Source: a virus. Taken from it: a stretch of 36,467 bases of DNA. The first letter of the stretch is position 1. Each line of letters begins with the position of its first letter. A program made the position numbers and the translations under genes. The stretch lies in the IMG/VR virus record IMGVR_UViG_3300032893_000181, positions 1-36,467 of that record; one strand, written 5' to 3'. The notes under the pieces are model-generated. The model had not been told where the DNA came from and did not search any database. It worked only from the letters and a program-made list of their open reading frames with translations. This document shows, piece by piece, positions 6,675 to 23,190 of this stretch.

Positions 6675-6804
6675 TGCTTATCTCAAGAGAGCTTTCTTGA
6701 TAAACAATACAATCAAATACAACACAGCAGAACTTATTATCAATATCATCCACCAAGGAATGCTGTTATCTAATTCTGTTGGTTTTGTTTCAGGCTCAGG
6801 TTTT
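6021..6804. repeat. 32-base direct repeat shared by two genes
   Basis: An identical 32-base sequence lies at 6021-6052 (in the zinc-finger gene) and at 6773-6804 (in the tail-anchored protein gene). The two copies are read in different frames, giving ENLSLKQNQQ in one and LKPEPETKPTE in the other. Confidence 0.85.
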
Positions 6805-7131: not shown

Positions 7132-7243
7132 ATCTTTCGCAATCCATTATCTTTTCTATTTGCGAAAGCTCTCGTTTCATCTGTCCTATCCTAGCATTTT
7201 GTCTATGCTGGTCTGCCAGAGCTTCTTCGTTGGTGTTCTCCAT
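7121..7243 (-). CDS. Small coiled-coil-like protein (40 aa)
   Basis: The frame starts at an ATG inside the end of the nuclease-like gene (41-base overlap, other frame) and stops across the start of the next gene. The product (MENTNEEALADQHRQNARIG at its start) is strongly helical with charged heptads. A GTGAGG site lies 5 bases before the ATG. It fills what would otherwise be the only gap in a tightly overlapping operon, which is the main support. Confidence 0.4.
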   Translation of the reverse strand: MENTNEEALADQHRQNARIGQMKRELSQIEKIMDCERYAY

Positions 7244-7559
7244 AATGCCTCACAAATTCCTTTACAATCTCCAAAGCTTCCCCTGATCTAACCATTTCGG
7301 GAATGAAGTTGAATTGATGGAATCCTGCCAGGCATCCTAGATTCAATTTAATACAGTCTCTTTTTATTCCCATGCCTGTAGAATGGCCTCCACCAATCCA
7401 AATCCCTCCATGGATCTCTATCAAAAGGTTACATTCGATGATTGCGAAATCCCAGCTAAATTTCCTATGAGGAAGGGCTTTGAATTCTCTTTTATAATTA
7501 AGACCTGCTTCTTTTAATTGACTCTCGAATAGATTCTCTACAGAAGTATTTCTTTTCAT
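7203..7559 (-). CDS. PD-(D/E)XK-type endonuclease (DUF559/VSR-like)
   Basis: 118 residues. The core 'RKFSWDFAI' followed by 'LLIEIHGG' (about 32-52) has the D-x(10-12)-E-x-H/K layout of the PD-(D/E)XK nuclease fold as found in DUF559 and very-short-patch-repair-like enzymes; a conserved GGH and 'KRDCIKLN' follow at the expected distance. The third catalytic position is His rather than Lys, which occurs in some members. It overlaps the next membrane protein gene by 4 bases (ATGA). It may process recombination or packaging intermediates, or act on competing DNA. Fold assignment is moderately sure; the substrate is unknown. Confidence 0.6.
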   Translation of the reverse strand: MKRNTSVENLFESQLKEAGLNYKREFKALPHRKFSWDFAIIECNLLIEIHGGIWIGGGHSTGMGIKRDCIKLNLGCLAGFHQFNFIPEMVRSGEALEIVKEFVRHYGEHQRRSSGRPA

Positions 7560-7803: not shown

Positions 7804-8376
7804 TTATTTGTTTTTGTTATCAATAGGAGTGGAGTTGAAAAGCATTTCGTTTGCTTCCTTCATTCCACCAAAATAGTAAGTATAAACTTTATCAGCTTTT
7901 AGGGATACATAAGTAATCAAAGAAGATACAATTGCAGAACAAGTTGGATCTTTGATAACTGAGGCATGACCTGAAAAGATCAATACAATCACACCCACAA
8001 AAGCAACAACGATTATATATGCTAATACTCCTGGTGTCCATTTATCTTTTGCGTCAACTTCTCGTTTTCTTGCTGAATCGTATGTGCTAGCTTCAGTTAC
8101 TGCCAATGCCTCTTGGTGTTTGAATCCAGCTTCTTCCATCTGCAATTTGAATTGATTCTCAGCATCTTTTAATTTTAAGAGTTGCTCTCCTGTCAGTTGT
8201 CCTGCTGCTATTTGTTCTGCAGCCTTCTGGGCATTCTCAGGGGTAGGCTCCAAACCGAGAGTCTCGCAAAGTACTTTGGTGGCTTCAGAAGCAAGCCCTC
8301 CAAAAGGACCAGTAAGACATCCTGCTAATACTGGTAATGCTTTACCTAATAATGCTTTAAAATCAAAACTCATCAC
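7804..8376 (-). CDS. Holin-like protein (three-helix, GTA-type)
   Basis: 190 residues. Hydrophobic segments lie at about 11-30, 115-135 and 145-160. Between them is a Gln/Glu-rich helix with 'LKDAENQFKLQMEEAG' and a 'RKREVDAKDKWTPGVLAYII' junction. The end 'VYTYYFGGMKEAN' resembles the YYFG signature of the 'holin of 3TMs' family (PF11351), known from gene-transfer agents and phages. Such proteins release the muralytic enzyme or depolarise the inner membrane at lysis. The muralytic enzyme candidate lies two genes upstream in the same transcript. ATGATGAG offers two start codons; the first is used here. Confidence 0.7.
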   Translation of the reverse strand: MMSFDFKALLGKALPVLAGCLTGPFGGLASEATKVLCETLGLEPTPENAQKAAEQIAAGQLTGEQLLKLKDAENQFKLQMEEAGFKHQEALAVTEASTYDSARKREVDAKDKWTPGVLAYIIVVAFVGVIVLIFSGHASVIKDPTCSAIVSSLITYVSLKADKVYTYYFGGMKEANEMLFNSTPIDNKNK

Positions 8377-8582
8377 TTCTCCCTTTCTGGGGTTTTTTGA
8401 AGAAACCCTAACGTTTCACCTTTGGCTTTAAATTCTTCCCACAAACCTGCTGCTTGAATAAGATGTAATGTTTTTGAGACTCCATCATTCAACCCTCTGC
8501 CATAAGCAGTGTGGATAATGGACTGTATTACAAAGTAAATTGCTATTAAAAACAGAGTCAGATACAAATACCCTACCATCAT
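8373..8582 (-). CDS. Small membrane protein of the lysis cassette
   Basis: The frame is open further upstream, but the ATGATGG at 8582, directly preceded by GGAGGA and overlapping the stop of the muralytic gene by 4 bases, is the likely start, giving 69 residues. One transmembrane helix lies near the N-terminus ('YLYLTLFLIAIYFVIQSI') followed by a soluble amphipathic tail. It overlaps the holin gene by 4 bases. Candidate roles are antiholin or inner spanin; neither is demonstrated by motif. Confidence 0.5.
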   Translation of the reverse strand: MMVGYLYLTLFLIAIYFVIQSIIHTAYGRGLNDGVSKTLHLIQAAGLWEEFKAKGETLGFLQKTPEREK

Positions 8583-8989
8583 TCCTCCACTGTCAAAATA
8601 GCAGGAGTTCGTAAACCCACATCGAATTCCCGATAATGTCTCTGCATTATGATACAACCCTCTGATTCATTATGAGCAGGATCGCCTGACCCCCCATGAA
8701 TATAAAAACCATCTCTACCATACATTTCGTTAGAAGGATCAGGAGTTAAGGGCATGGCAAGAACCCCTAGCACAGGATGGTGTATTGGTTTTTCTATAGT
8801 GTAGCTACCTTGAGGAAGAGGGCCTATACAATGAAGATGTTGAGCTTTTGGATTATTCATCCCTTGAATGTGTGTCGGATTGACTCCTGGTCTGCTATTA
8901 TTTCCGGCATAACAAACACATATCAGATTGTCTTCCTCATCAAAAAACTTCCCAGAGGATTGTGAATATTTGAACTTAAAACATTCCAT
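8579..8989 (-). CDS. L,D-transpeptidase-fold muralytic enzyme (DUF2778-like)
   Basis: 136 residues from the ATG at 8989, chosen because AAGGAG lies 5 bases upstream (a GTG at 8992 is in frame). 'CIGPLPQGSYTI' (about 55-66), 'MPLTPDPSNEMYGRDGFYIHGG' region and 'NESEGCIIM' (about 109-117) form the G-P-x-P-x-G-x-Y, GR.GF.IHG and S.GCI pattern of the DUF2778/tlde1 branch of YkuD-like enzymes; His and Cys would be catalytic. These act on the peptide stems of peptidoglycan. With the holin candidate downstream it is the best endolysin candidate here. No signal peptide is seen, so export would need the holin. Confidence 0.65.
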   Translation of the reverse strand: MECFKFKYSQSSGKFFDEEDNLICVCYAGNNSRPGVNPTHIQGMNNPKAQHLHCIGPLPQGSYTIEKPIHHPVLGVLAMPLTPDPSNEMYGRDGFYIHGGSGDPAHNESEGCIIMQRHYREFDVGLRTPAILTVEE

Positions 8990-9263
8990 CACGTCTCCTT
9001 ATGATGATACTTTTTTCTGAATTATATACACCTATATGTTTTGGATGACATTGTAGTTCAAGCATGACCGTCAACAATACCAAAGCTGGTCCACTAGGGG
9101 TCGATTTAGCACTCTCCCATAAAGAAACTGTGGTTTGGTCTACATGAAGTGCCTCAGCCAATTCCTGTTGAGACAACCCTGCATGCTTTCTATAGCTTAT
9201 CAATTTCGAAGCCAAATCAGTATCAATTTTAGATTGACTATCTGCGAACAAAGATACCTCCAT
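8976..9263 (-). CDS. XRE-family helix-turn-helix regulator
   Basis: 95 residues. 'LASKLISYRKHAGLSQQELAEALHVDQTTVSLWE' region (about 18-51) is a typical HTH_3 domain with the recognition helix at VDQTTVSLWES. It overlaps the muralytic gene by 14 bases or less, so it is cotranscribed with the lysis set and may repress it. The ATG at 9263 has little ribosome site, whereas GGAGG inside the first codons sits 5 bases before a TTG (9251), which may be the real start. Palindromic TTCGAA/CGAAATTCG sequence directly upstream could be its own operator. Confidence 0.75.
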   Translation of the reverse strand: MEVSLFADSQSKIDTDLASKLISYRKHAGLSQQELAEALHVDQTTVSLWESAKSTPSGPALVLLTVMLELQCHPKHIGVYNSEKSIIIRRRDGMF

Positions 9264-10914: not shown

Positions 10915-12237
10915 TTATACATTACCAAATTCGTCTCCTTCATCTAGTTCTGTGAAGCGCACTAAATTCATGTCAAAATTCAATTTTATCTTCCCAGTAG
11001 GTCCGTTTCGTTGTTTGGCTATTATGAGGTCTCTCAACCCTTCTTCTTCTCGTGTAGGTCGATGAAGGAACATCACCAAGTCTGCATCTTGTTCAATACA
11101 TCCTGAAGATCTCAAATCGGATAACTGAGGAGTTCCATTTTGCCGGTGTTCTATTTCTCTATTCAACTGAGACAATAGAACAACAGGAAGTGCATACTTT
11201 TTAGCCAGTATCTTTAGATCTCTAGTTATCTCACCTATTCGGGTTGCTTCTGAATCTTTAGAATTACTTTTCCCCGAAGAGATCAATTGCAAGTAATCTA
11301 CCACCACCAAATCTAACTTATTATTCGGGGTAGTCAAGTGTTTGTCTAATACGATTTCCATATCCTTCGTAGTCAGATCTGCTTGATCATTCACAAAGAT
11401 TGGAAGTTTTGAGAGATCCGTCTTTTCTTGCAAAATCCGATTTTGGAGTCTAAAGTCAAAATCCCTACTTCCCACTCTTCTGAAATTTATTCTTGACTTT
11501 GTTGACAATAGTCTTTGAAAGATCTCTTCTTTGGACATCTCTAATGAAAACAATGCCCCATGAGATCTATTAGAACTTATTGCCCCGTTTAACAGCATGT
11601 TCAATGCATAAGAAGTTTTACCAACAGCGGGTCTAGCTGCTAGTATCACAAGATTTCCTGCCTGAAAGCCTTGTGTCAAGGTATCTAGCTGAGGGAACCC
11701 TGTTCTTATTCCAAATGATCTCTTCCCTGAAAGCTTGTCAAAAAGTAGTGAGATAGAATTCTCTGCTATATCTCCAATCTGTTCCAAACTTTCTGTTTCT
11801 TTTGTTTGAGCAAGAACAAAAAGTTCTTGAGACAAGCCTTCTAGGATGGTATCAGGTTGAATTTCTTGTGCGGAATCCGTGATCAATTTAGAGCCTATTC
11901 GCATCAGCTCGCGTAGCTTCCTTTTCCTCACCAAGATGTCAACAAGACTGGTGGTGTTTACCACTATTGGCTCTGAAACTATTTTTTGAAATTCCTCATA
12001 CCCTCCTATTTTTGTTAAAGTCCCGTTTCTCTGTAGAGAATCTTTCAAAGTTATGTGATTTATTTCTATCTTTTCTTTTAAAAGTGAGAGTATTCCCCTA
12101 AAGATCAATTTATGGTGAGGGTGACTAAAATCTGTCTCTGTGAGCTTGGTTATCGTCTCAGAACAGTCAGTAGTAGTACAAGCTGTCAACACAGCTCTCT
12201 CAGCTTGGAGATCTTCAGGGAGATTATTCGGAATCAT
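10915..12237 (-). CDS. dnaB: Replicative DNA helicase, DnaB type
   Basis: 440 residues from the ATG at 12237 ('MIPNNLPEDLQAERAVL'), which matches the usual DnaB N-terminus; an in-frame start at 12270 would add 11 residues that belong to the overlapping array gene. The N-terminal domain (about 1-100) is followed by a linker and the RecA-like domain: Walker A 'AARPAVGKTS' (about 200), 'GALFSLEMS', Walker B 'LVVVDYLQL' (about 310), 'LSQLNREIEHR' and arginine finger region 'DLRSSGCIEQDADLV'. It unwinds DNA 5'-3' as a hexamer. The last array gene overlaps its start by 14 bases, so the helicase may depend on translation of the array. Confidence 0.92.
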   Translation of the reverse strand: MIPNNLPEDLQAERAVLTACTTTDCSETITKLTETDFSHPHHKLIFRGILSLLKEKIEINHITLKDSLQRNGTLTKIGGYEEFQKIVSEPIVVNTTSLVDILVRKRKLRELMRIGSKLITDSAQEIQPDTILEGLSQELFVLAQTKETESLEQIGDIAENSISLLFDKLSGKRSFGIRTGFPQLDTLTQGFQAGNLVILAARPAVGKTSYALNMLLNGAISSNRSHGALFSLEMSKEEIFQRLLSTKSRINFRRVGSRDFDFRLQNRILQEKTDLSKLPIFVNDQADLTTKDMEIVLDKHLTTPNNKLDLVVVDYLQLISSGKSNSKDSEATRIGEITRDLKILAKKYALPVVLLSQLNREIEHRQNGTPQLSDLRSSGCIEQDADLVMFLHRPTREEEGLRDLIIAKQRNGPTGKIKLNFDMNLVRFTELDEGDEFGNV

Positions 12238-12448
12238 ATAACTCTTCGTTTGAAACCGAGGTGAAAGCAAAACGAGGATTTAAATACAGATCATTTATCA
12301 AGGAGGTGTGCAAAGAACTAAGCAAGTTGCCTCTTAGTGTAGCGAAAAGATCATTCCGTTTATAATGCAACCAACCTCCTTCTACCTTTATCTCATGAAT
12401 ACCAATGTAAACACATCTAGTTTTAGCTACACTCTCTCCTAATTGCAT
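12224..12448 (-). CDS. MxLG array ORF 29 (last, overlaps dnaB)
   Basis: 74 residues from MQLGESV. The end 'RFAFTSVSNEELYDSE' is nearly the same as the end of the array ORF at 12715-12936, so these two form a subfamily distinct from the common CSxE..EKL ending. Its stop lies inside the dnaB start (14-base overlap). Function unknown; membership rests on the start signature and tandem position. Confidence 0.6.
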   Translation of the reverse strand: MQLGESVAKTRCVYIGIHEIKVEGGWLHYKRNDLFATLRGNLLSSLHTSLINDLYLNPRFAFTSVSNEELYDSE

Positions 12449-12633
12449 AATGGACCCCACATAGAAGGAAAACAAGAAGTCTCAATTTCATTAAAAAGAA
12501 GAAGATCAGGATCACCACTCATCAGAGTAGGGAACCAACGCTGATACATCTCTCTTTGGTGACACAAAAGGTGATGCATTGTTACACAATACATCCCCCC
12601 TGGTGGGTAACCAACATTCTTTCCTAATTTCAT
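12439..12633 (-). CDS. MxLG array ORF 28
   Basis: 64 residues from MKLGKNVGY, rich in Cys, Met and aromatics, ending PLCN; overlaps the next ORF by 10 bases. The frame is open further up to another MKLG start at 12711, giving a 90-residue version through a degraded unit, so two starts compete. Function unknown. Confidence 0.55.
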   Translation of the reverse strand: MKLGKNVGYPPGGMYCVTMHHLLCHQREMYQRWFPTLMSGDPDLLLFNEIETSCFPSMWGPLCN

Positions 12634-12711
12634 AACTTTCCCTTTATCTCTACGGAACATGAAATACACATAACCCTTCATGTTCAGAATAAACAAAAGT
12701 CCTAATTTCAT
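12634..12711 (-). pseudogene. Degraded MxLG array unit
   Basis: Only 78 bases separate this ATG-AAA-TTA-GGA start from the next one, against 130-220 in intact units. The DNA for a normal tail (C-S-V-E-I-K-G-K-L-stop) is still present but in the +1 frame relative to the start, so an internal deletion has removed the middle and shifted the frame. Confidence 0.5.
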
Positions 12712-12714
12712 AAC

Positions 12715-12936
12715 TCACTCCTTATCATACAACTCTTTATTTGAAACTGAAGTAAAAGCAAAATGAGGCTCATGGAAACATAATTCCTCTTTTAATATAA
12801 AATACAATACATCATCCACCTTGGATTTTGTTCCACAGAAAAGATCAATCCCTGTCTTAGTCCAAGGCAGAATAGCAGAAGTTCTTATATAATCCGTCCC
12901 CACTGTCCAATAGCTAACACTCTTTCCTAATTGCAT
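12715..12936 (-). CDS. MxLG array ORF 27
   Basis: 73 residues from MQLGKSVSYW; ends 'HFAFTSVSNKELYDKE', the closest relative of the last array ORF although a different unit lies between them. Ribosome site GAGGAAGAAGTT just before the ATG lies in the tail of the preceding ORF, which it overlaps by 10 bases. Confidence 0.6.
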   Translation of the reverse strand: MQLGKSVSYWTVGTDYIRTSAILPWTKTGIDLFCGTKSKVDDVLYFILKEELCFHEPHFAFTSVSNKELYDKE

Positions 12937-13118
12937 AACTTCTTCCTCATCTCTATGTAACACTCTAGACGTACCTCAAAAAAGTAATCATTAAGCAGCC
13001 TATTGTTATTCCACACAACGTAACGATACCAACTACTCTTAACAATAGAATCCCAAAAATTCTTCTGGTCATATAGACCGATAAATGTACTCTCCTTATA
13101 TTGCGTTCCTAATCTCAT
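12927..13118 (-). CDS. MxLG array ORF 26
   Basis: 63 residues from MRLGTQYKES; contains 'LYDQKNFWDS', 'NDYFFEV' and the tail 'CYIEMRKKLCN'. These are the core marks of the main subfamily: an FW pair in the middle, a YFF-D/E-V strand and a Cys-x-x-E tail. Overlaps its neighbours by 4 and 10 bases. Confidence 0.6.
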   Translation of the reverse strand: MRLGTQYKESTFIGLYDQKNFWDSIVKSSWYRYVVWNNNRLLNDYFFEVRLECYIEMRKKLCN

Positions 13119-13261
13119 AACTCTAGCCTCATCTCTCTAGAACAGTCATGATATACAACATAAAAGTAGCCAACAAACTCACCGCGGCTTACCTCATACC
13201 CATCCCGAGTCTCATTTGGAGAGACAAAAGTAGCCCAACCACGTTGTCGTCCTAATTTCAT
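13115..13261 (-). CDS. MxLG array ORF 25
   Basis: 48 residues from MKLGRQRGW; 'GYFYVVYHDCSREMRLEL' tail of the main subfamily, without the FW core, so a shortened member. Stop and next start overlap as ATGA. Confidence 0.55.
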   Translation of the reverse strand: MKLGRQRGWATFVSPNETRDGYEVSRGEFVGYFYVVYHDCSREMRLEL

Positions 13262-13446
13262 AACCACATCTTCATCTCTCTGTTGCACACCACATGTACA
13301 TCAAAAAAATAGTCAATAGGCCTTGTTACCCGACGCCATACGTCGTAAGCACTACACCTAGAGTTACCATGCGAATTCCAAAATCTATCGTCATACATAG
13401 TAATGGTATCCAATTCCCGTTCTCCGAGTGACTTTCCTAATTTCAT
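13258..13446 (-). CDS. MxLG array ORF 24
   Basis: 62 residues from MKLGKSLGER; has 'MYDDRFWNSHG' core, 'IDYFFDVHVVCNREMKMWL' end. A clear main-subfamily member with ATGA overlap to both neighbours. Confidence 0.6.
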   Translation of the reverse strand: MKLGKSLGERELDTITMYDDRFWNSHGNSRCSAYDVWRRVTRPIDYFFDVHVVCNREMKMWL

Positions 13447-13619
13447 AACCGCTCCTCCATCTCTGCCGTTATCTCTACATCACGCATCCAAGGTTGTCTA
13501 AGAGATCCTCCTATCGTTATGTGGGAAAAATGCCGCCAAGGTTTGTCAAGTAAATCCCAAATGCTTTCACCAGAGGGAGTAATAGGAAGACCTCTTATAT
13601 ATTGCGTTCCTAATCTCAT
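13443..13619 (-). CDS. MxLG array ORF 23
   Basis: 58 residues from MRLGTQYIRG; 'IPI/LPITPSGESIWDL' core resembles the ORFs at 14425 and 17647, but the tail 'VEITAEMEERL' lacks the usual Cys. The start chosen is the MRLG codon; the frame is open for 9 more codons upstream inside the preceding ORF. Confidence 0.58.
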   Translation of the reverse strand: MRLGTQYIRGLPITPSGESIWDLLDKPWRHFSHITIGGSLRQPWMRDVEITAEMEERL

Positions 13620-13762
13620 AACTCTAGCCTTGTCTCTCCGTAACATACGTGATCTATATCAAAAAATCTAATAGGGTTTTTTGACCAACCCAAATCCGGA
13701 TGCTGAACAATCGTATATATACCAACATAAGTAAGACTCAAATATTTCTGTCCTAATTTCAC
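13616..13762 (-). CDS. MxLG array ORF 22 (GTG start)
   Basis: 48 residues, GTG start, VKLGQKYLSLTYVGIYTIV at the N-terminus, close to the ORF at 16781-16936 in the other block; ends 'FFDIDHVCYGETRLEL'. Shows that relatives are scattered over both blocks rather than adjacent. Confidence 0.58.
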   Translation of the reverse strand: MKLGQKYLSLTYVGIYTIVQHPDLGWSKNPIRFFDIDHVCYGETRLEL

Positions 13763-13932
13763 AACTTTCCTCTTATCTCCAAAAGACACGCGTGATCACA
13801 GGTATAAAAATATCTAACACGCCCTACTAGGTCTGTGTAGAAATCCTCCTCTGTGTAGAAATCCTCCCGCCACTCAACTTCACCCCACACATCCCGATCA
13901 TCTCCTGTATCACACAACTGTCCTAATTTCAT
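13759..13932 (-). CDS. MxLG array ORF 21
   Basis: 57 residues from MKLGQLCDTG. Contains a direct internal duplication of 16 bases coding for EDFYTE/EDFYTD, a fresh tandem expansion. Tail 'CLLEIRGKL'. GTGA overlap to the next ORF. Confidence 0.58.
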   Translation of the reverse strand: MKLGQLCDTGDDRDVWGEVEWREDFYTEEDFYTDLVGRVRYFYTCDHACLLEIRGKL

Positions 13933-13933
13933 A

Positions 13934-14086
13934 TCATAGCTCCTTCCATGTCGCTACAGAACACATACGATGTATGCTAAAAAAGTGTCTAATAGGCCTT
14001 GAACGCCTATCGGCCGAACGCCAAGCATGCCAAAAATCATCATCATATAGAAAAACAACAATATCAGGTTGCCGTCCTAACTCCAT
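13934..14086 (-). CDS. MxLG array ORF 20
   Basis: 50 residues from MELGRQPDIVVF; core 'YDDDFWHAW' and tail 'MCSVATWKEL'. Strongly related to the first half of the fused ORF at 16933-17298 ('DDDFWYTW'). The next ORF starts one base after the stop. Confidence 0.58.
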   Translation of the reverse strand: MELGRQPDIVVFLYDDDFWHAWRSADRRSRPIRHFFSIHRMCSVATWKEL

Positions 14087-14247
14087 GATTCCTCCAAGGT
14101 CTCATAAGAAACTTGGTTGTGCGTTATAGAACAGAATTCGAGAGGATGGTAAATCTCATCTTCCGGATTAAACTCCCAGTGGTTTGGCTTACCTCGGAGC
14201 CGTAACTCACACCACAACCTCAAGGTAATATTTATCCCTAATTCCAT
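14077..14247 (-). CDS. MxLG array ORF 19
   Basis: 56 residues from MELGINITLR; 'LWCELRLRGKP' and 'EFCSITHNQVSYETLEE' pair it with the adjacent ORF at 14238, forming a separate FCSITH subfamily. Overlap of 10 bases with the next ORF, whose start codons spell its own last codons. Confidence 0.58.
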   Translation of the reverse strand: MELGINITLRLWCELRLRGKPNHWEFNPEDEIYHPLEFCSITHNQVSYETLEESWS

Positions 14248-14408
14248 AATTCCTCTACAATCTCATCAGAAACTCGAATATGCGTTATAGAACAGAATAC
14301 AAGAAGAGAAAAAGTCTCACCTGGTAGGTCCAAAATCGGAAGGCGTGGCTCAAATCGAAACCCCAACTCATGCCATAACTTCCGACCACAACTTCCCCCT
14401 AATTGCAT
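14238..14408 (-). CDS. MxLG array ORF 18
   Basis: 56 residues from MQLGGSCGRK; 'LWHELGFRFEP' and 'VFCSITHIRVSDEIVEELWN'. A recent duplicate pair with the ORF at 14077. Function unknown. Confidence 0.58.
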   Translation of the reverse strand: MQLGGSCGRKLWHELGFRFEPRLPILDLPGETFSLLVFCSITHIRVSDEIVEELWN

Positions 14409-14424
14409 AATTTACGCCTCATCT

Positions 14425-14592
14425 CTACATGACACACACACAAATTACATCACCAAAGTATCTGATAGACTCCTCTGTCCATTCCCATATGTGGGAAATA
14501 AGTCGCCCATCTTCATCGCGCAAATCCCAAAAACTCTCATCATACCAACAAGTAGCAGGAATACCATTTGTATATTGTTGTCCTAACTTCAT
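14425..14592 (-). CDS. MxLG array ORF 17, frame broken at a GT repeat
   Basis: 55 residues from MKLGQQYTNG; core 'WYDESFWDL'. The frame ends early right after a TGTGTGTGTGT run (14432-14442). Removing one GT unit would restore the expected tail V-C-H-V-E-M-R-R-K-L-C-N and the usual overlap with the next ORF. So it is either phase-variable by slippage, a fresh mutation or a sequencing error. Confidence 0.5.
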   Translation of the reverse strand: MKLGQQYTNGIPATCWYDESFWDLRDEDGRLISHIWEWTEESIRYFGDVICVCVM

Positions 14593-14750
14593 AACTCATC
14601 CTCAATCTCATTAGAAATTTGATCACACATTTCGAATAACTCACTTTCTATTTCAGCTGAGGGCCATATTCCATACAACTTATGCCAAAACCAACTGTTG
14701 TTATCTTCTCCTAAATTCATAACTTCCTCCAACTCTTTTCCTAATTTCAT
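14589..14750 (-). CDS. MxLG array ORF 16 with a fused remnant start
   Basis: 53 residues if begun at MKLGKELEEV (14750), 43 if begun at the second signature MNLGEDNNSW (14720). The first 30 bases are all that is left of another unit. Core 'WFWHKLYGIW' recalls the FCSITH subfamily; the tail is 'SNEIEDEL'. Confidence 0.5.
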   Translation of the reverse strand: MKLGKELEEVMNLGEDNNSWFWHKLYGIWPSAEIESELFEMCDQISNEIEDEL

Positions 14751-14959
14751 AACTTCTCCCTCATCTCATGTTCACAACTTCTGTGTGTTTCTATGAATTG
14801 GTTGAGAGGGTTTCCTATGCGGCCAGCTAATGTACGGAACAAATCCCAAGAGAAATTTCTACGTAAGTAATATAGCTGAGCATGATCTAACATACGACAA
14901 GAAAATTTCAACCACGGAAAATCATAAGGATCATAATCTAGACGCTTTCCCAAACGCAT
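14747..14959 (-). CDS. MxLG array ORF 15 (first of the left block)
   Basis: 70 residues from MRLGKRLDYD, ending 'RSCEHEMREKL' as in the main subfamily. It begins 12-14 bases after the T-tract of an intrinsic terminator, with GAAAGGG as ribosome site. An in-frame start inside the terminator hairpin (15016) is rejected. The left block therefore needs read-through or a promoter overlapping the hairpin. Confidence 0.55.
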   Translation of the reverse strand: MRLGKRLDYDPYDFPWLKFSCRMLDHAQLYYLRRNFSWDLFRTLAGRIGNPLNQFIETHRSCEHEMREKL

Positions 14960-14970
14960 AACAACCCTTT

Positions 14971-15014
14971 CACAAAAAGAAAGGCTGTTAGAAAGTTGGA
15001 TACCTCTAACAGCC
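14971..15014 (-). terminator. Intrinsic terminator before the left array block
   Basis: GGCTGTTAGA (15014-15005 equivalent) pairs perfectly with TCTAACAGCC across a 12-base loop, and the - strand continues TTTCTTTTT. It ends the transcript of the gene at 15041 and stands directly before the first array ORF of the left block. Confidence 0.75.
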
Positions 15015-15040
15015 AAAGATTTAATAGAAAACCCAACGGT

Positions 15041-15259
15041 TTAATAGAACATCAGATTCTCAATCATATTCATCTGTCTTTCCAAAATAGAGATGGGGAG
15101 TGGACCAAGTGCTCCTTGGGAATCCCTACGACTCAGAAGCTCAACGACTTCCTTTCTATACAATCTGAGCGCGACAATCAAGGCAATTATGCCTTTTTCT
15201 CCTTGATTATTTTGAGCTATCTGGATCTCCAAATCACGAAGGGGTGTAGAAGTAAGCAT
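15041..15259 (-). CDS. Small helical protein between array blocks
   Basis: 72 residues from MLTSTPLRDL, chosen because GGAG lies 5 bases upstream; a TTG start at 15346 would give 101 residues. The product is a helical, charged protein ('NNQGEKGIIALIVALRLYRK' in the middle) with no MxLG signature. Its ribosome site is the 3' arm of a long hairpin (15266-15314), so translation may be controlled. A longer frame on the other strand (14996-15382) opposes all neighbours and begins with TTG, so I prefer this one. Confidence 0.45.
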   Translation of the reverse strand: MLTSTPLRDLEIQIAQNNQGEKGIIALIVALRLYRKEVVELLSRRDSQGALGPLPISILERQMNMIENLMFY

Positions 15260-15265
15260 GTAATT

Positions 15266-15314
15266 CTCCGAGAGAAAGGCACAAACATTGTGCAGTTTTT
15301 GGTTACTCTCGGAG
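15266..15314 (-). promoter_or_regulatory. Hairpin that covers a ribosome-binding site
   Basis: CTCCGAGAG and CTCTCGGAG (9 base pairs, perfect) enclose a second perfect stem GCACAA/TTGTGC. On the - strand the last GGAG of the outer stem is the ribosome site for the ATG at 15259. The structure would sequester it. Confidence 0.5.
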
Positions 15315-15378
15315 TTGCTGAGCCCTATGGATCTTTTAAAGGGCAAATCATTAGTCGGGGCTGTCCCGCGATGGAAAT

Positions 15379-15600
15379 CTAATACTCATTTGATGATTTG
15401 TCAATGCTGTTATTTTTTTGTTGAGAGGCTCTTTTCTTTTTGTATGCCTCACGTGAAGCATTGTATTTCTGCGCCCACGCAGCATTGTAAGGTCTGGTGA
15501 AATCCCAAAGTCCTTGGTGCTCAACATACCAAATTGAATTACTGTTGAGAGGTGCCATACTAAAGTCTGTCTTCACAACATAATATGATTTATTGACCAT
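15379..15600 (-). CDS. Small basic-tailed hypothetical protein
   Basis: 73 residues with a clean AGGAGG ribosome site. A tyrosine-rich N-terminus is followed by 'WYVEHQGLWDFTRPYNAAW' and a Lys/Gln/Ser-rich tail. It has no MxLG signature and interrupts the array; it overlaps the last ORF of the right block by 28 bases and is thus cotranscribed with it. Function unknown. Confidence 0.5.
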   Translation of the reverse strand: MVNKSYYVVKTDFSMAPLNSNSIWYVEHQGLWDFTRPYNAAWAQKYNASREAYKKKRASQQKNNSIDKSSNEY

Positions 15601-15761
15601 TGTTCCTCCTGTATGTGTTTGTGATGATCCAAGGATTCGTGACGTATTTCTGCAAAATAAGAAAGATTGGATCTAAGTATGATTTCTATTGCCAAACGGA
15701 GTGTTCCTAAAGCCTGAATGGAGCCAAAACCTTCTACAGCAATATTTTTCCCTAATTTCAT
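15573..15761 (-). CDS. MxLG array ORF 14 (last of the right block)
   Basis: 62 residues from MKLGKNIAVE; 'SYFAEIRHESL' relates it to the ORF at 15946 ('YFAEIYQDCL'). The tail differs from the norm because it continues into the ribosome site of the unrelated gene at 15379-15600. Confidence 0.58.
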   Translation of the reverse strand: MKLGKNIAVEGFGSIQALGTLRLAIEIILRSNLSYFAEIRHESLDHHKHIQEEQWSINHIML

Positions 15762-15955
15762 AAACCACCTATTCGATCATTTATTTTTTTAGTAACTTTC
15801 TCATACAGTCCTTCATACCAATCCAACGGGATGCTTTCTAATCGCCTTTCTAATGAATAATAAAGACCTATAGATAAAGAGGAGGAAGATACACCATCAG
15901 GATCTAAAATATCCAGGTTGTATAATCGTATATCTTGTTCTTTCCCTAATTCCAT
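15758..15955 (-). CDS. MxLG array ORF 13
   Basis: 65 residues from MELGKEQDIR; 'SIGLYYSLERRLESIPLDW' is nearly the same as in the ORF at 16417, so these form a third subfamily with the ending 'NDRIGGL'. The frame is open for 41 codons upstream but only within the neighbouring ORF. Confidence 0.6.
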   Translation of the reverse strand: MELGKEQDIRLYNLDILDPDGVSSSSLSIGLYYSLERRLESIPLDWYEGLYEKVTKKINDRIGGL

Positions 15956-16110
15956 GCCTTCTCCCTCGACTCGTTTAAACAGTCTTGATATATTTCTGCA
16001 AAATAGAAAAACCTGAATGGGATGTCCATTACTGTAGCGAATGCTATTGAAGGAAACCCAAACCCAGGAGGATTGCAAACTCTTTCTGTGATATTTTTCC
16101 CCAAGTTCAT
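15946..16110 (-). CDS. MxLG array ORF 12
   Basis: 54 residues from MNLGKNITER; aromatic-rich middle 'FRFFYFAEIYQDCL'. Related to the ORF at 15573 though a different subfamily lies between. Overlap of 10 bases with the next ORF. Confidence 0.58.
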   Translation of the reverse strand: MNLGKNITERVCNPPGFGFPSIAFATVMDIPFRFFYFAEIYQDCLNESREKAWN

Positions 16111-16277
16111 AAACTGCCTATTCGATTACACATTTCATTATTAACCACTGCGTGCAATTCTTCAGCCCAAGGATTGTTTGCTAAATACCTTTGTAGTTCC
16201 CAGCAAACCTCTGTGTCCATAATGCAGGCAGATGTGACAAGCACCCACGGATAACTAACATCTTCTCCTAATTCCAT
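16107..16277 (-). CDS. MxLG array ORF 11
   Basis: 56 residues from MELGEDVSYP; 'LQRYLANNPWAEELHAVVNN' matches the ORF at 16614 ('LTSNLWAEQLHREVSN'). Tail 'MCNRIGSL', ATGA overlap. Confidence 0.58.
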   Translation of the reverse strand: MELGEDVSYPWVLVTSACIMDTEVCWELQRYLANNPWAEELHAVVNNEMCNRIGSL

Positions 16278-16420
16278 AGAACATCCTCTCGATCATCTGC
16301 TTTATCAGGAATCTCCGCCCGCAACCCTTCGCACAATGAACGGTAAGACCTCCAACAGTAAGCTTCAACCGGGGATATGCCAAACCAAATCCTGCAACTA
16401 ACCTCTCTCCCTAAGTTCAT
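16268..16420 (-). CDS. MxLG array ORF 10
   Basis: 50 residues from MNLGREVSCR, with 'GISPVEAYCWRSYRSLCEGL' in the middle and an acidic C-terminus. No close relative elsewhere in the array apart from the start signature. Confidence 0.55.
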   Translation of the reverse strand: MNLGREVSCRIWFGISPVEAYCWRSYRSLCEGLRAEIPDKADDREDVLWN

Positions 16421-16617
16421 AAACCACCCTCTCGATCATGCATTTCCTCACCAACTTCCTCGTACAGTCTTTCATACCAATCAAACGGGATGCTTTCTAA
16501 TTGCCTTTCTAATGAATAATAAAGACCTATAGACAAAGGGGAGGAAGATATGATATTAACCTCTAAATTATTTAAGATGTTGTGCAACGACATGTCTCGG
16601 TCTTTCCCTAATTTCAT
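16417..16617 (-). CDS. MxLG array ORF 9
   Basis: 66 residues from MKLGKDRDMS; second member of the 'SIGLYYSLERQLESIPFDW' subfamily (see 15758-15955), ending 'HDREGGL'. The two differ mainly in the N-terminal third. Confidence 0.6.
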   Translation of the reverse strand: MKLGKDRDMSLHNILNNLEVNIISSSPLSIGLYYSLERQLESIPFDWYERLYEEVGEEMHDREGGL

Positions 16618-16790
16618 AAACCACCTATTCGACCATCCATTTCATTACTAACCTCTCTGTGTAACTGTTCAGCCCAAAGATTGCTTGTTAAATGCTTTTG
16701 TAGTGCATCGTAGGTACATAAGAACCGATAACCTATTTCACCCCGATACATAGGATTACGATCACTGCTATATTGCCGTCCTAATCGCAC
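16614..16790 (-). CDS. MxLG array ORF 8 (GTG start)
   Basis: 58 residues from V/MRLGRQYSSD; 'WAEQLHREVSNEMDGRIGGL' end. The C-terminal half pairs with the ORF at 16107 while the N-terminus 'RLGRQY' pairs with main-subfamily members, so it looks like a mosaic of two subfamilies. Confidence 0.57.
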   Translation of the reverse strand: MRLGRQYSSDRNPMYRGEIGYRFLCTYDALQKHLTSNLWAEQLHREVSNEMDGRIGGL

Positions 16791-16936
16791 AACCTCTCCT
16801 TTATCTCTGTGGTACATGCATCGTGTACCACAAAAAAATAGCTAAGAGACCTTGTTGACCCACAACAACCCCCAACGATCTCATACAGACCACTATAAAC
16901 AAGACTAAGGTATTTCTGGCCGTATCCTAAGTTCAT
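16781..16936 (-). CDS. MxLG array ORF 7
   Basis: 51 residues from MNLGYGQKYL; 'GQKYLSLVYSGLYEIV' pairs with the ORF at 13616, 3 kb away. Tail 'CTTEIKERLCD', overlap of 10 bases with the next ORF. Confidence 0.58.
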   Translation of the reverse strand: MNLGYGQKYLSLVYSGLYEIVGGCCGSTRSLSYFFVVHDACTTEIKERLCD

Positions 16937-17298
16937 AACTGACTTCCTATCTCTCTATAACACACACGATCTATATCATCAAAGTATTCAGCAAGCCCTT
17001 CTGTCAGGGGGCTAGGTGGAGACCGCCACTCACCCTTGGGATTCCAAAAACCACTACCACACAAATGACCAAGATCAGCACATAGTGAACCTCTTTGTCT
17101 ATTAAGATAGTGTTTTCCTAATTCCATAACCCATAACCTCTCCCCTATCTCTACGGAGCATAAGGTATTTATGTCAAAAAAATATCTAATAGATCTTGCT
17201 GACCACGAACGCCTACCAGGCGAATTCCAAGTATACCAAAAATCATCATCACACTGATGTCCAAAAACAACACTACCTGGTTGTTGTCCTAAGTTCAC
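16933..17298 (-). CDS. MxLG array ORF 6: two units fused in frame
   Basis: 121 residues with GTG start (V/MNLGQQPGSV). The first unit runs to 'CSVEIGERL' and would normally stop as TTATGA. A tandem CATAACC duplication (17125-17138) replaces the stop, and the frame continues W-V into MELGKHYL, the start of a second complete unit (16933-17127, 64 residues). That internal ATG is intact, so both the fusion and the separate second protein may be made. Confidence 0.55.
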   Translation of the reverse strand: MNLGQQPGSVVFGHQCDDDFWYTWNSPGRRSWSARSIRYFFDINTLCSVEIGERLWVMELGKHYLNRQRGSLCADLGHLCGSGFWNPKGEWRSPPSPLTEGLAEYFDDIDRVCYREIGSQL

Positions 17299-17492
17299 AA
17301 CTTCTCCTTTATCTCCACAGAGATCGCTGTGGAGCATACGGTATGTATGTCAAACAAGTAATTAATAAATCTTGTTGATTCTGTGTAGAAAAGACTCCAC
17401 CGTTTCCGTGCTTCATGAGGTGAACCTATAATCTTCTTATCATACAAACTACCAAAAGTAGCACCACACGGGTAATTTCGTCCTAATTGCAT
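17295..17492 (-). CDS. MxLG array ORF 5
   Basis: 65 residues from MQLGRNYPCG; 'LYDKKIIGSP' core, 'INYLFDIHTVCSTAISVEIKEKL' end. The tail holds both CSTA and SVEI, as if two tails had been joined. Confidence 0.6.
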   Translation of the reverse strand: MQLGRNYPCGATFGSLYDKKIIGSPHEARKRWSLFYTESTRFINYLFDIHTVCSTAISVEIKEKL

Positions 17493-17650
17493 GATTCCTC
17501 CAACTTACACACATCATAAGAATCAACAGATACTTCAGCAAGATCAAACACCAAAGAAGCTTCCACCCAAAACTCACATCGAACCCTCACATCATCTATT
17601 GAAGGGTATTGACGAAAAATAAACCATGCCTTATTCCCTCCCAACCTCAC
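17483..17650 (-). CDS. MxLG array ORF 4 (GTG start)
   Basis: 55 residues from V/MRLGGNKAWF; 'RVRCEFWVEASLVFDLAEV' middle, ending 'VCKLEESCN'. A divergent member with overlap of 10 bases to the next ORF. Confidence 0.55.
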   Translation of the reverse strand: MRLGGNKAWFIFRQYPSIDDVRVRCEFWVEASLVFDLAEVSVDSYDVCKLEESCN

Positions 17651-17802
17651 AACTTCTCCCTCATCTCTGCCGAACAGTCGTGATGTACATCACAAAATAT
17701 AGGAGAAACATGCCATCCACGCATGTCACATGAACCCTGAGGGTCCCAAAAATCCCTCAAAGTAACAGGAATGCCTTCTTCATATTGTCTTCCTAATTTC
17801 AT
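17647..17802 (-). CDS. MxLG array ORF 3
   Basis: 51 residues from MKLGRQYEEG; 'GIPVTLRDFWDPQGS' core is close to the ORF at 14425, and the tail 'HHDCSAEMREKL' is the archetype of the main subfamily. The frame is open for 39 codons upstream inside the preceding ORF and that part is not used. Confidence 0.6.
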   Translation of the reverse strand: MKLGRQYEEGIPVTLRDFWDPQGSCDMRGWHVSPIFCDVHHDCSAEMREKL

Positions 17803-17960
17803 AGCGCTTCTCCTGTCTCCATAGAACATGCTCGGTCTATGACAAAAAAGTAGCCACCACATTTTAGTACTTCCTTCCATACGAAGGGAGAGTGTGAAGC
17901 ACAAAAGCTCGGACCACAATTCGGTCCTAATTTCACATCATAACTTCTTCCTAATTCCAT
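17799..17960 (-). CDS. MxLG array ORF 2 with a fused remnant start
   Basis: 53 residues from MELGRSYDV, which is a 24-base remnant of one unit followed in frame by a second signature V-K-L-G (GTG at 17936). 'GGYFFVIDRACSMETGEAL' is the main-subfamily end. Either start may be used. Confidence 0.53.
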   Translation of the reverse strand: MELGRSYDVKLGPNCGPSFCASHSPFVWKEVLKCGGYFFVIDRACSMETGEAL

Positions 17961-18103
17961 CATAACTTCTCCGCTATCTCTGTGGAACATACGCGGTATA
18001 CATCAAAAAGGTATCTGATAGATGTTCCTGACCAATATCGAGCCCAACCCCTCGAACATAGATCACCCCAAGTAAGATTGAGACGCTGCTTTCCTAACCC
18101 CAC
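17960..18103 (-). CDS. MxLG array ORF 1 (first of the array, GTG start)
   Basis: 47 residues from V/MGLGKQRLNL; 'SIRYLFDVYRVCSTEIAEKL' end. Ribosome site GGGGAGGGG. It begins about 22 bases after the T-rich side of a long terminator hairpin, so no room exists for a normal promoter between them. Confidence 0.57.
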   Translation of the reverse strand: MGLGKQRLNLTWGDLCSRGWARYWSGTSIRYLFDVYRVCSTEIAEKL

Positions 18104-18124: not shown

Positions 18125-18185
18125 AATAAAGAAACAGACCTAAGATTTTCAACCCCTATTTTAAGATCGAAAAGTCTTAGGTCTG
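18125..18185 (-). terminator. Intrinsic terminator before the right array block
   Basis: A 16-17 base stem (CAGACCTAAGA..TTTTC against its complement, one bulged base) with an 18-base loop, followed on the - strand by TTTCTTTATT. It ends the transcript of the gene at 18215 and stands directly upstream of the first array ORF. Confidence 0.7.
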
Positions 18186-18684: not shown

Positions 18685-19698
18685 TTAAGTTTCGATCAAA
18701 GGGTAGTACTGTTCCCCCCTCTTATTATAAGTTGAGGCTACCGCATTGTGTGCAGTAAGCTTTTGTGGCTCTCCAAAAGTTACTGTTCCATCAGGATCTA
18801 GTTTCATCGGCCGAAGCTCAGGGTGTACCTGTAGGAAGTATTTCTTAACACGTCCATCATCCTCAACTGTAGAATTGAGAAGTTCAACAAACAACATGTC
18901 CTCTGACTTGCCATTTTTCTTCTGCCAGAGTGAGCCAAATTCATCAGTATGTATCCTGACAGCACCAAATTCTTTACAGAAGCGCTCTCCTCCAAAGATT
19001 TCTATCAATGCGGCTTTTATTTCCTCATTGTTTTCTTTGGCAATGTCATTTGCTGTTATCCGCTCAGGATTTGTGATAACCCAAGAAGGAATCTTAACTC
19101 CATGGTATCGCCACAACTGAAAACCATCACGGAACTGCACAGCGGGACCGTGCTCAGCATGCAACCTTCCTGCAGGATCTAACCGGAGTTCTGAGGGCCG
19201 GTCACAAACAAAGCAGTAGTTTTCAAAAGCATAGACACGCCCACAAGACTGAGTAAGATCATCCCAACAGCTCAAAATTTCAACTTGCTCTTTGTTATAA
19301 TAAGCCTCGACATTATAGTGGACAAAACCCAGGAAACACACTCTCGGAGCATCCCATTGGCCATAAATCCATGTATCGACCAATCTGGATTGTTTGTTCT
19401 TCCGGACATAATCTTCTGGCATTGTAAAACATTCATAAGTATCGGTTTTTATCTTTTTGAAAAAACTTGGGATCTTGTCAAGATGAGATGCTTCGTTTAT
19501 TAGAACTTGTGCAGTGTACGGATTCGTCCTTACCATGATTGGTAATGACAAATTTGATTTTTTGTATAACTGCTTGAGTGCATTTTCTGCTCTATCAAAG
19601 TCAGCGGGGTCAGTGCACATTCCATAACCCCGATATTTCTCAATCCATTTGACTTTTAACTCCTCTTGTTCGGGAGTGAGTTTTGTGATTTCTGCCAT
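18685..19698 (-). CDS. DUF6745-type protein
   Basis: 337 residues. The C-terminal half has the pattern 'ELRLDPAGRLHAEHGPAVQFRDG', 'WRYHGVKIPSWVI', 'PERIT..DIAKENNEEIKAALIEI', 'GGERF', 'FLQVHPE' and 'TFGEPQKL', which I associate with DUF6745. The N-terminal 150 residues are helical with a 'NPYTAQVLINEASHLD' segment. Ribosome site AAAGGAGAG lies 5 bases before the ATG. Its function is not established; with the downstream partner at 18215 it may form a module that phages and bacteria share. Confidence in the family is moderate. Confidence 0.55.
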   Translation of the reverse strand: MAEITKLTPEQEELKVKWIEKYRGYGMCTDPADFDRAENALKQLYKKSNLSLPIMVRTNPYTAQVLINEASHLDKIPSFFKKIKTDTYECFTMPEDYVRKNKQSRLVDTWIYGQWDAPRVCFLGFVHYNVEAYYNKEQVEILSCWDDLTQSCGRVYAFENYCFVCDRPSELRLDPAGRLHAEHGPAVQFRDGFQLWRYHGVKIPSWVITNPERITANDIAKENNEEIKAALIEIFGGERFCKEFGAVRIHTDEFGSLWQKKNGKSEDMLFVELLNSTVEDDGRVKKYFLQVHPELRPMKLDPDGTVTFGEPQKLTAHNAVASTYNKRGEQYYPLIET

Positions 19699-20833: not shown

Positions 20834-21304
20834 TTAAATCAAACTCAAATTCTTCACTCTTGTCAGGTCGACCTCTTTCAAATCGGCACCACTCAAATTG
20901 ACCTCGCTCATATCAGCTCCACTCAAATCGGCCTTACGCAGGTTAGCTCTATATAGGTTAGCGTTACTCAAGTCAGCGTTGCTCAGATTAGCCCCAACTA
21001 GATCAGCCCAATGTAAATCGGCACCACACAAGTCAGCGTTGCTCAGATTAGCCCCAACTAGATCAGCCCAATGTAAATCGGCACCACTCAAATCAGCGTT
21101 GCTCAAATTAGCCTCAACTAGACCAGCCCAGCATAAATCGGCACCACTCAAATCGGCACCACTCAAATCGGCACCACTCAAATCGGCACCACACAAATTA
21201 ACATCATGCAGATCAATCCCTCTCAAACGTGCTCCGCTCAAATTCGGCTGCTCACCTTTCTCACAAGCTGTTTTGACAATTTGTATGATTTCTTGGCGGT
21301 CCAT
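20834..21304 (-). CDS. Pentapeptide-repeat protein
   Basis: 156 residues. After a 20-residue helix, about 25 consecutive pentapeptides of the A(D/N)Lxx type (such as GADLS and NADLS) run to the end, which form a right-handed quadrilateral beta-helix. Known members include gyrase inhibitors that mimic DNA (MfpA/Qnr), but many have no known role. The central part contains two copies of a 60-base unit (four pentapeptides) that are almost the same at DNA level, evidence of recent expansion. Ribosome site AAGGAG is clear. Confidence 0.88.
   Translation of the reverse strand: MDRQEIIQIVKTACEKGEQPNLSGARLRGIDLHDVNLCGADLSGADLSGADLSGADLCWAGLVEANLSNADLSGADLHWADLVGANLSNADLCGADLHWADLVGANLSNADLSNANLYRANLRKADLSGADMSEVNLSGADLKEVDLTRVKNLSLI
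20971..21090. repeat. 60-base tandem repeat in the pentapeptide gene
   Basis: Units at 20971-21030 and 21031-21090 differ at only a few end bases, and a third, more diverged copy follows. Each encodes four pentapeptides, so changes in copy number keep the frame. Confidence 0.8.
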
Positions 21305-21500: not shown

Positions 21501-21737
21501 CTATTTGACCAGTTCGACGGAATACTCAACACCCATCAAGGCACCATCTTCTTTGTCTATGATGTATGTTGTAGTCACCAAGACATCAGCACCATACGCA
21601 GTCTTGCATGCAATGTTTACTGAGTAATTCTCAACACCATCAGGAGGTAACATAACAGCTTGTTCATGCACGATGGTTATCCCTTCATCACCAATGATCT
21701 CCCATAACTCAACAAGATTCAGATGTTCGGTCTTCAT
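21501..21737 (-). CDS. Small beta-rich family member 4
   Basis: 78 residues. Shares with the genes at 22433, 22715 and 23191 an N-terminal helix, a 'VHEQAVMLPPDGVENYSV' type middle, a Cys-x-T followed by 'GADVLVTTTYI' and a 'GVEYSVELV' end. The family is about 80 residues long and looks like one alpha helix plus a four-strand sheet. GGAGG ribosome site. It is the most distant member and lacks the duplicated leader of the others. Unknown function. Confidence 0.6.
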   Translation of the reverse strand: MKTEHLNLVELWEIIGDEGITIVHEQAVMLPPDGVENYSVNIACKTAYGADVLVTTTYIIDKEDGALMGVEYSVELVK

Positions 21738-21764
21738 GACATCCTCCCATTCGGTTAAGGTCCC

Positions 21765-22106
21765 TCACACGCAATCTTCTCTATCAGCTCTTTCGCCATG
21801 CTGATTGTGGATACGTGTGTTGTACCAATTCCCATCACAGTATTGGGCAGGGGCATTACAGTGACAATGCTTGCAATAATGGCCAGCTCTTTTCCCGTGT
21901 TGACAATACCCTTGAGTGAGTTTGTCTTTGCAGGCTTGAGCAGCTTCTTTAGTGCGATGTTTATGACCACAACGTCGCAACTCTTCCCAGCGTTTACCAT
22001 CAGGGCTGAATGAGCCAGACTCTACAACTACCGAATAGGTTTCTTTTTCGTCTCTTTTGACATCTATGAAAGACAATGTATGATATGTTTTGTCGTTGGT
22101 TTGCAT
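21765..22106 (-). CDS. Cys/His-rich putative zinc-binding protein
   Basis: 113 residues. The N-terminal half has a strand-rich fold ('YSVVVESGSFSPDG'), then 'CGHKHRTKEAAQACKDKL', which resembles the short region that follows AP2-type strands, and 'YCQHGKRAGHYCKHCHCN', a Cys/His cluster likely to bind zinc. AGGAGC ribosome site. Its place between the tRNA-side genes and the beta-rich family suggests regulation or nucleic-acid binding, but this is inference. Confidence 0.5.
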   Translation of the reverse strand: MQTNDKTYHTLSFIDVKRDEKETYSVVVESGSFSPDGKRWEELRRCGHKHRTKEAAQACKDKLTQGYCQHGKRAGHYCKHCHCNAPAQYCDGNWYNTRIHNQHGERADREDCV

Positions 22107-22117
22107 AGATGCTCCTG

Positions 22118-22315
22118 TTAGACAACGTGGAAGTGATGATATCTTTCATAAATCACTTTACGATTCTCTATGACCGTAACTAACACCAGGAGTCCTTTGT
22201 TTATACAATTGTTATACAATCTTTTAGCCACTCTGACATAACCTCTCGGTGTGTTAGCTTTTGTAATGCATGACGCTCCATCGGTGCTAGTAGAAATACG
22301 TAAGATTTTAGACAT
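22118..22315 (-). CDS. Small hypothetical protein after the tRNA
   Basis: 65 residues, basic, with 'TPRGYVRVAKRLYNNCINKG' in the middle and a strand 'LLVLVTVIENRKVIYERY'. ACAGGAGA ribosome site lies just past the end of the tRNA. Unknown function. Confidence 0.5.
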   Translation of the reverse strand: MSKILRISTSTDGASCITKANTPRGYVRVAKRLYNNCINKGLLVLVTVIENRKVIYERYHHFHVV

Positions 22316-22331
22316 TCAAATCTCCTGTCGG

Positions 22332-22403
22332 TCGCACGTGCGGCGCTTGAATCCGCTTCCTAGCCTTATGAGAGCCATGTCTTACCGCATAGACGAACGT
22401 GCG
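22332..22403 (-). tRNA. tRNA with CAT anticodon (Met or Ile2)
   Basis: The 72-base cloverleaf has a perfect 7-bp acceptor stem (CGCACGT/ACGTGCG), a 4-bp D stem GTCT/AGAC with loop ATGCGGTA (A14, G18G19 and A21 present), an anticodon stem TGGCT/GGCTA (two wobble pairs) with loop CTCATAA, a 4-base variable region, and a T arm GCGGA-TTCAAGC-GCCGC with one A-G mismatch at the loop-closing pair. Discriminator A is followed by CCG, so CCA must be completed by the host. The loop suits elongator Met or, with lysidine, Ile for AUA codons, which are frequent here. The T-arm mismatch is the only weak point. Confidence 0.8.
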
Positions 22404-22432
22404 ATTAATACACAGTCTGTCAATCTGATATT

Positions 22433-22702: not shown

Positions 22703-22714
22703 GACAGCTCCTTT

Positions 22715-22960: not shown

Positions 22961-23041
22961 GATAGCTCCTTTTTGGTTGAAGCCTCTGACCTGTTTTGAT
23001 CTACTCACAAGATAATTCTTGGATTACCATGGCGCAAGAGA

Positions 23042-23178: not shown

Positions 23179-23190
23179 ATTCTCAGTTGT

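Follow-up and report, generated by a model that had tools for sequence, protein, structure and literature searches.

We analysed the IMG/VR virus record IMGVR_UViG_3300032893_000181 over its full 36,467 nucleotides (nt), referred to here as the window, and describe within it a tandem array of small genes on the minus strand at 12224-18103. The array comprises 29 chained open reading frames (ORFs), or 30 units if the 121-amino-acid (aa) ORF 17298-16933 is split at an internal start module at 17127. Every unit opens with the same short signature, which we consider primarily a nucleic-acid signal and not a protein motif, and this signature forms part of a standard joint between one gene and the next. 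We give roughly even credence to the reading that a family of small proteins has expanded in tandem here and recombines, that it is read as a translationally coupled chain, and that its products act early on the host or its defences. Expansion of a gene family is of a known kind in phages; we rate the standard start/stop joint as the unusual part.

A chain of small genes and its start/stop joint

The units are 47-74 aa long apart from the one fused pair of 121 aa, and their mean length of 61 aa corrects the sizes given in an initial annotation made from the sequence alone. The rest of that layout (about 30 tiny minus-strand ORFs in tandem over 5.9 kb, ATGA or 10-base overlaps and one interruption) was borne out by the ORF listing and the starts. 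Neighbouring units overlap by 4 nt in 15 cases, by 10 nt in eight and by 1 nt in one, the exceptions being gaps of 1, 16, 81 and 613 nt; the longest of these (approximately 14960-15572) is the interruption of the array. At the other end, unit 30 overlaps the likely start of dnaB (ATG at 12240) by 17 nt. A profile of type A units matched 16 places, all within the array, and none in a companion contig of the same phage (IMGVR_UViG_3300032897_000035). The features are listed below from the first unit to the last and on into dnaB; a five-digit number denotes a unit by the coordinate of its first base, and SD stands for Shine-Dalgarno.

18135-18185 (-): strong hairpin with a U-rich tail after it (-27.3 kcal/mol, z -6.7); immediately before unit 1
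17960-18103 (-): unit 1, 47 aa, GTG start, type A tail
17799-17960 (-): unit 2, 53 aa, type A; a further start module in frame at 17936
17647-17802 (-): unit 3, 51 aa, type A; mosaic, N-terminus like unit 14592 and C-terminus like 18103/13118
17483-17650 (-): unit 4, 55 aa; no detectable relative apart from the start module
17295-17492 (-): unit 5, 65 aa, type A
16933-17298 (-): units 6 and 7, in-frame fusion, 121 aa; second start module at 17127
16781-16936 (-): unit 8, 51 aa, type A; N-terminus closely resembles that of unit 13762
16614-16790 (-): unit 9, 58 aa; mosaic, type A start and type B tail (DRIGGL)
16417-16617 (-): unit 10, 66 aa, type B; has a near-identical core of 84 bases in common with unit 14
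16268-16420 (-): unit 11, 50 aa; middle unlike any other
16107-16277 (-): unit 12, 56 aa, type B tail
15946-16110 (-): unit 13, 54 aa
15758-15955 (-): unit 14, 65 aa, type B; candidate recombination or gene-conversion core in common with unit 10
15573-15761 (-): unit 15, 62 aa; end overlaps ORF 15379-15600
15379-15600 (-): unrelated 73-aa ORF inside the interruption; AGGAGG 5' of its ATG, no Met-x-Leu-Gly start
14983-15014 (-): terminator-like hairpin just upstream of unit 16, which opens the second block
14747-14959 (-): unit 16, 70 aa, type A tail
14589-14750 (-): unit 17, 53 aa; a further start module in frame at 14720, a remnant of 10 codons
14425-14592 (-): unit 18, 55 aa; out-of-frame tail, 16-nt gap before unit 19
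14238-14408 (-): unit 19, 56 aa, type C tail (FCSITH)
14077-14247 (-): unit 20, 56 aa, type C tail
13934-14086 (-): unit 21, 50 aa, type A; closely resembles unit 6 (17298)
13759-13932 (-): unit 22, 57 aa, type A
13616-13762 (-): unit 23, 48 aa, GTG start, type A
13443-13619 (-): unit 24, 58 aa
13258-13446 (-): unit 25, 62 aa, type A
13115-13261 (-): unit 26, 48 aa, type A
12927-13118 (-): unit 27, 63 aa, type A
12715-12936 (-): unit 28, 73 aa, type D tail (SVSNxELYD)
12439-12711 (-): unit 29, 64 aa from its start at 12633, with a truncated 26-codon remnant (from 12711) joined to it in frame
12224-12448 (-): unit 30, 74 aa, type D tail; 17-nt overlap with the dnaB start
10915-12240 (-): DnaB-like replicative helicase; likely ATG at 12240, own SD weak (-2.9 kcal/mol)

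The hairpins before units 1 and 16 may be leader structures or processing sites, because the room before the first starts is too small for a standard sigma-70 promoter.

The units are protein-coding genes, as first proposed, on the evidence of open frames, ribosome-binding sites and codon-position bias. No in-frame stop occurs in approximately 1,770 unit codons, while the other two frames contain 133 and 161. Nearly every unit start is preceded by an SD site, with a mean pairing energy of -7.2 kcal/mol compared with -3.0 at the region's other ATG and GTG codons (p=5e-12), and base composition varies with codon position (chi2=102, p=9e-20). Compared with what their base composition predicts, the unit bodies are rich in Asp, Glu, Trp and Tyr (Asp plus Glu 13.6% where 6.5% is expected; Trp 4.2% where 2.1% is expected). 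A random-sequence origin of the middles is not supported, as the units depart from its expected composition, and an alternative genetic code was set aside, since TGA serves as a stop and table 11 leaves the long conserved genes open.

Each unit begins ATG or GTG-nnn-TTA/TTG-GG. Searched as ATG/GTG/TTG-nnn-TTAGG, the signature occurs 30 times in the window, always on the minus strand and always inside the array; with TTG also accepted as the Leu codon there are 33 occurrences in the array, whereas 500 dinucleotide-preserving shuffles averaged 0.95 and never gave more than 6. The Met-x-Leu-Gly start noted in the initial annotation is present in all units, but its description as a protein motif was not supported. 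Leu is TTR (R, purine) and Gly is GGR in 30/30 units, whereas TTR makes up 56% of Leu codons and GGR 37% of Gly codons in the unit bodies. This test treats the units as independent, an assumption that common descent weakens; set against that caveat, roughly one synonymous site in three differs between the paralogs elsewhere.

The signature also determines where the preceding gene ends. The commonest tail, CSxEMREKL, is the SD region of the next unit plus TTATGA read in frame. Where codon 2 of the next unit begins with A, the TGA of ATGA ends the upstream ORF; where it does not, that ORF runs two codons further to the TAG within TTAG, which produces tails such as ELWN or KLCN. The stops within ATGnnnTTAGG (TGA and/or TAG) lie in the +1 frame. 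Because the tail is the next SD read in frame and the TGA or TAG of the start module stops the upstream ORF, a single short joint holds ribosome-binding site, stop and start. The constant end types described at first are therefore real, but the commonest is partly the ribosome-binding site of the next gene. Extra in-frame start modules at 17936, 17127, 14720 and 12711 mark fusions or deletions, and those at 17936, 14720 and 12711 (upstream of 12633) are seen as short in-frame remnants.

That the repeats might belong to a non-coding RNA or a packaging structure was tested in part: the joints showed no conserved RNA fold (RNAalifold 0 pairs, mean z -0.5) and the Rfam search matched no family. 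The joint could instead be an operator for a phage or host regulator of translation initiation, with the proteins secondary. The operators of T4 RegA overlap the AUG of many early genes and include GUUAUG (PMC3014915), and the array joint likewise overlaps the start codon and includes GUUAUG; its GTTATG forms part of the RegA consensus from systematic evolution of ligands by exponential enrichment, AAAAUUGUUAUGUAA (PMC3014915). Consistent with such an operator, TTRGGR is kept at synonymous positions. In the array the sequence runs on into the coding region as TTAGGA. We consider this explanation highly improbable: the A-rich tract is absent, no fold is conserved, and, as a weak negative, a search for RegA homologues found no family match in the window or the companion contig, the control search likewise having matched nowhere.

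Another explanation, which we regard as quite unlikely, places the importance of the joints in dnaB. The chain of short ORFs would mainly carry ribosomes along a leader to dnaB or set its level, so that openness and joints matter and peptide identity is minor. Strict joints and SD sites alongside weak amino-acid constraint would be expected of such a relay, and unit 30 overlaps the dnaB start; dnaB has a weak SD of its own and is probably translationally coupled to unit 30. A leader of approximately 5.9 kb and 30 units would be costly, however, and it would be split by a hairpin and the interruption. Neither the non-random acidic and aromatic composition, with its codon-position bias, nor the near-invariant Cys and aromatic residues of the type A tail would be expected if peptide identity were minor.

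Paralogy, mosaic units and selection

Leave-one-out profiles from which the first five residues had been removed recognised 20/30 units, confirming the paralogy suggested earlier. When the last 18 residues were also removed, only 7/30 were recognised, in agreement with the earlier description of constant ends and variable middles; the middles are barely alignable. The closest full-length pair is approximately 80% identical and most pairs are lower. The N and C halves of single units match different partners: unit 9 (16790) begins as type A and has its type B tail in common with 16277, and unit 3 (17802) resembles 14592 at its start but 18103 and 13118 at its end. Between 16617 and 15955, just 5 differences fall within a core of 84 bases (79/84 identical), as against 36 in the other 118 aligned columns (69% identity; p=1.5e-4), the footprint of either local exchange or uneven constraint. 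The match between units 12936 and 12448 is confined to roughly the final 45 bases, and the 12448 copy overlaps the dnaB start. These pairwise and half-unit comparisons uphold the observation that close relatives lie kilobases apart and that some units are mosaics. Gene birth by duplication and shuffling, also put forward at first, is a candidate origin consistent with the data of this one genome.

Selection was examined through the ratio of nonsynonymous to synonymous substitution rates (dN/dS). First-pass codon differences over all high-scoring segment pairs were uniform by position and were replaced by tests on disjoint pairs. Protein-guided alignment of disjoint paralog pairs gave pairwise dN/dS from 0.07 to 1.8, or approximately 0.5 pooled by hand. 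Judged from these sequence comparisons, purifying selection on the paralog pairs is weak. Fourteen units have in common the type A tail (YFFDIHxVCS), which lies upstream of the joint.

In the reading that we prefer, unequal recombination at the short repeated joints would generate the copies, and divergence and the exchange of segments would follow. The sequence shows that the end of one ORF supplies the ribosome-binding site of the next and that ATGnnnTTAGG starts that ORF and stops the previous one; translation would be coupled from unit to unit. With stop, SD and start all contained in the joint, most recombinants that stay in frame would be expressed at once, which the fusions and remnants fit. 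Selection would keep the ORFs open, favour acidic and aromatic composition and constrain single residues weakly, as expected of a repertoire under changing selection. The least certain step is that the proteins would serve early on as small binders for host takeover or counter-defence, the target being weak or differing from variant to variant; by analogy, the units probably have a host- or defence-directed role and act early. That the array is a standing device for protein diversification, with the joint as both recombination point and expression signal, new middles expressed at once and selected, and a pool of young small proteins as the outcome, seems to us unlikely.

Several observations weigh against the preferred reading. 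Frame-blind DNA alignment of nine pairs gave a dN/dS of 0.69 with a 95% interval of 0.48-1.00, the pooled value falling below 1 in 97.5% of bootstraps, so that purifying selection, whose absence was named at the outset as evidence to the contrary, is nearly but not quite missing. The conserved tail is equally conserved at all three codon positions, and type A tails are for this reason explicable by shared descent or exchange as well as by protein selection. None of the units tested matched a known protein family in Pfam, PHROGs or PADLOC, the last including a scan of type A units. Structure prediction of the subfamilies, as proposed earlier, was carried out for types A and B, and the AlphaFold2 models were poor (mean predicted local distance difference test score 62-63), too low for a fold search. 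No relative in which a change of array content might be seen was found in IMG/VR, GTDB species genomes or phage and plasmid collections.

The last result draws on several searches. DNA-motif and paired-motif scans of IMG/VR and GTDB genomes returned chance matches or short-period tandem repeats only, none with a profile match. One array protein had no match in GTDB genomes, and array DNA had no blastn match among phages and plasmids. Searches with helicase, polymerase, terminase, portal and capsid found deep homologues only (approximately 20-41% identity), save for one overlapping contig of the same phage. For want of relatives, the evolutionary claims rest on comparison inside one genome. A diversity-generating retroelement is not supported, as no reverse transcriptase (PF00078) was found in the window or the companion contig, with positive controls; integrase families and RecT were likewise not found in these two records.

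The weak constraint raises the possibility of neutral or selfish expansion, in which a recombination-prone start joint would let units accumulate and drift with little function. A dN/dS interval that reaches 1.00, truncated and fused remnants and middles that cannot be aligned are all consistent with such drift. We find it improbable, given frames that stay free of stops despite strong divergence, a non-random composition, the bootstrap result for pooled dN/dS and the cost of the array within a phage genome of approximately 53 kb. The units might also be small host-takeover proteins with distinct fixed targets, as in the early modules of large lytic phages, their paralogy being a historical trace. 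Their small size, tight packing, place beside replication genes and dissimilar middles would suit that account, but tails common to several units, together with exchange within genes, suggest homogenisation and shuffling more than a set of fixed specialised genes, and we assign it a low probability.

The phage genome around the array

Judged by its genes, the window is a phage record: it encodes the large and small terminase subunits, a DNA polymerase (PHROG 1252), a primase, a DnaB-like helicase and a dUTPase. Together with the overlapping contig, these genes bear out the phage origin first assumed. Window positions 30996-36467 are 100% identical over 5,472 bases to the end of the companion contig, which extends the same phage by approximately 16.5 kb with a portal gene and other virion genes; adding both records, the whole genome is probably approximately 53 kb. 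The portal is approximately 26-29% identical to portals of Roseobacter, Rhizobium, Sinorhizobium and Pelagibacter phages. From the predicted genes, the strand of the array is the one that also carries replication genes; dnaB adjoins the array, with a dUTPase gene nearby and between these two an ORF that resembles a single-stranded DNA-binding protein by eye.

Other features of the window were recorded. Upstream of the array, a DUF6745 protein is encoded at 18685-19698 (-; Pfam E=1.5e-37; distant Microcystis phage matches) and a 156-aa pentapeptide-repeat protein at 20834-21304 (-). A second family of small paralogs occupies 21501-23430 (-), with four genes in the same direction (approximately 78-90 aa, 36-53% identical, dN/dS 0.22-0.60), one pair having a duplicated upstream stretch (22714-23092 and 23190-23564); a tRNA-Met (CAT) gene lies at 22330-22403 (-). 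An identical 21-base sequence, AAACAAAATCCAACAAGGAGA, at 26024-26044 and 26446-26466 (+) stands immediately 5' of two successive rightward gene starts and is a second start-associated repeat in the same phage. Beyond dnaB there is a Tlde1-domain protein (8579-8992, -; Pfam E=4e-11) with a possible role in lysis and, near it, ORF 7804-8376, which belongs to a PHROG of unknown function and is holin-like by eye. The ORF at 7203-7559 (-) is endonuclease-like (PHROG 503, weaker homing endonuclease matches); endonucleases of this sort are able to drive segmental amplification in T-even phages. A perfect 32-base direct repeat (6021-6052 and 6773-6804) has one copy within the Cys/Lys-rich ORF 5973-6674 and the other just upstream of it.

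Known systems and the possible birth of small proteins

A limited literature search found no description of an array like this one. The start-associated sequences (SAS) and extended SAS (ESAS) of Cluster K mycobacteriophages are short one-orientation repeats that occur in 11-19 copies at many non-structural gene starts and include an SD core; their function is unproven (PMC3203893). The array repeat resembles the SAS in its start-associated position and single orientation. In contrast, the SAS (GGGATAGGAGCCC) lies 3-7 bp upstream of the start codon with the SD core within it and is common to unrelated families, whereas the array repeat has its SD upstream and a conserved core from -2 to +11 that spans the start into codon 4, doubles as the upstream stop and marks paralogs in one array. 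The 13-bp SAS consensus, with up to 2 deviations allowed, had 0 matches in the window.

Two further systems are analogies and not families to which, by this comparison, the array would belong. Phage counter-defence genes amplify in tandem via short homologies, as in T4 tifA (PMC9391042) or by SegB-driven amplification (PMC13096335). The array too holds tandem copies of small phage genes, but those amplifications are recent, laboratory-selected and near-identical, while the array copies are strongly diverged and mosaic. In archaeal viruses, small early genes with one repeated regulatory sequence include validated anti-defence genes (PMC11065993). The likeness lies in groups of small genes of unknown function, some paralogous, under one repeated sequence; the archaeal repeat is a promoter before single genes, whereas the array repeat is a translational joint within overlapping genes.

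The origin of the many small genes without known relatives in phages is an open question. This locus displays intermediate stages in one genome, from close pairs through mosaics and fused or truncated units to units alike only in their start signal. Should relatives or population data show that array content turns over, the locus would allow the birth of small proteins to be measured in nature and would offer, in compact form, candidate proteins that interact with the host.

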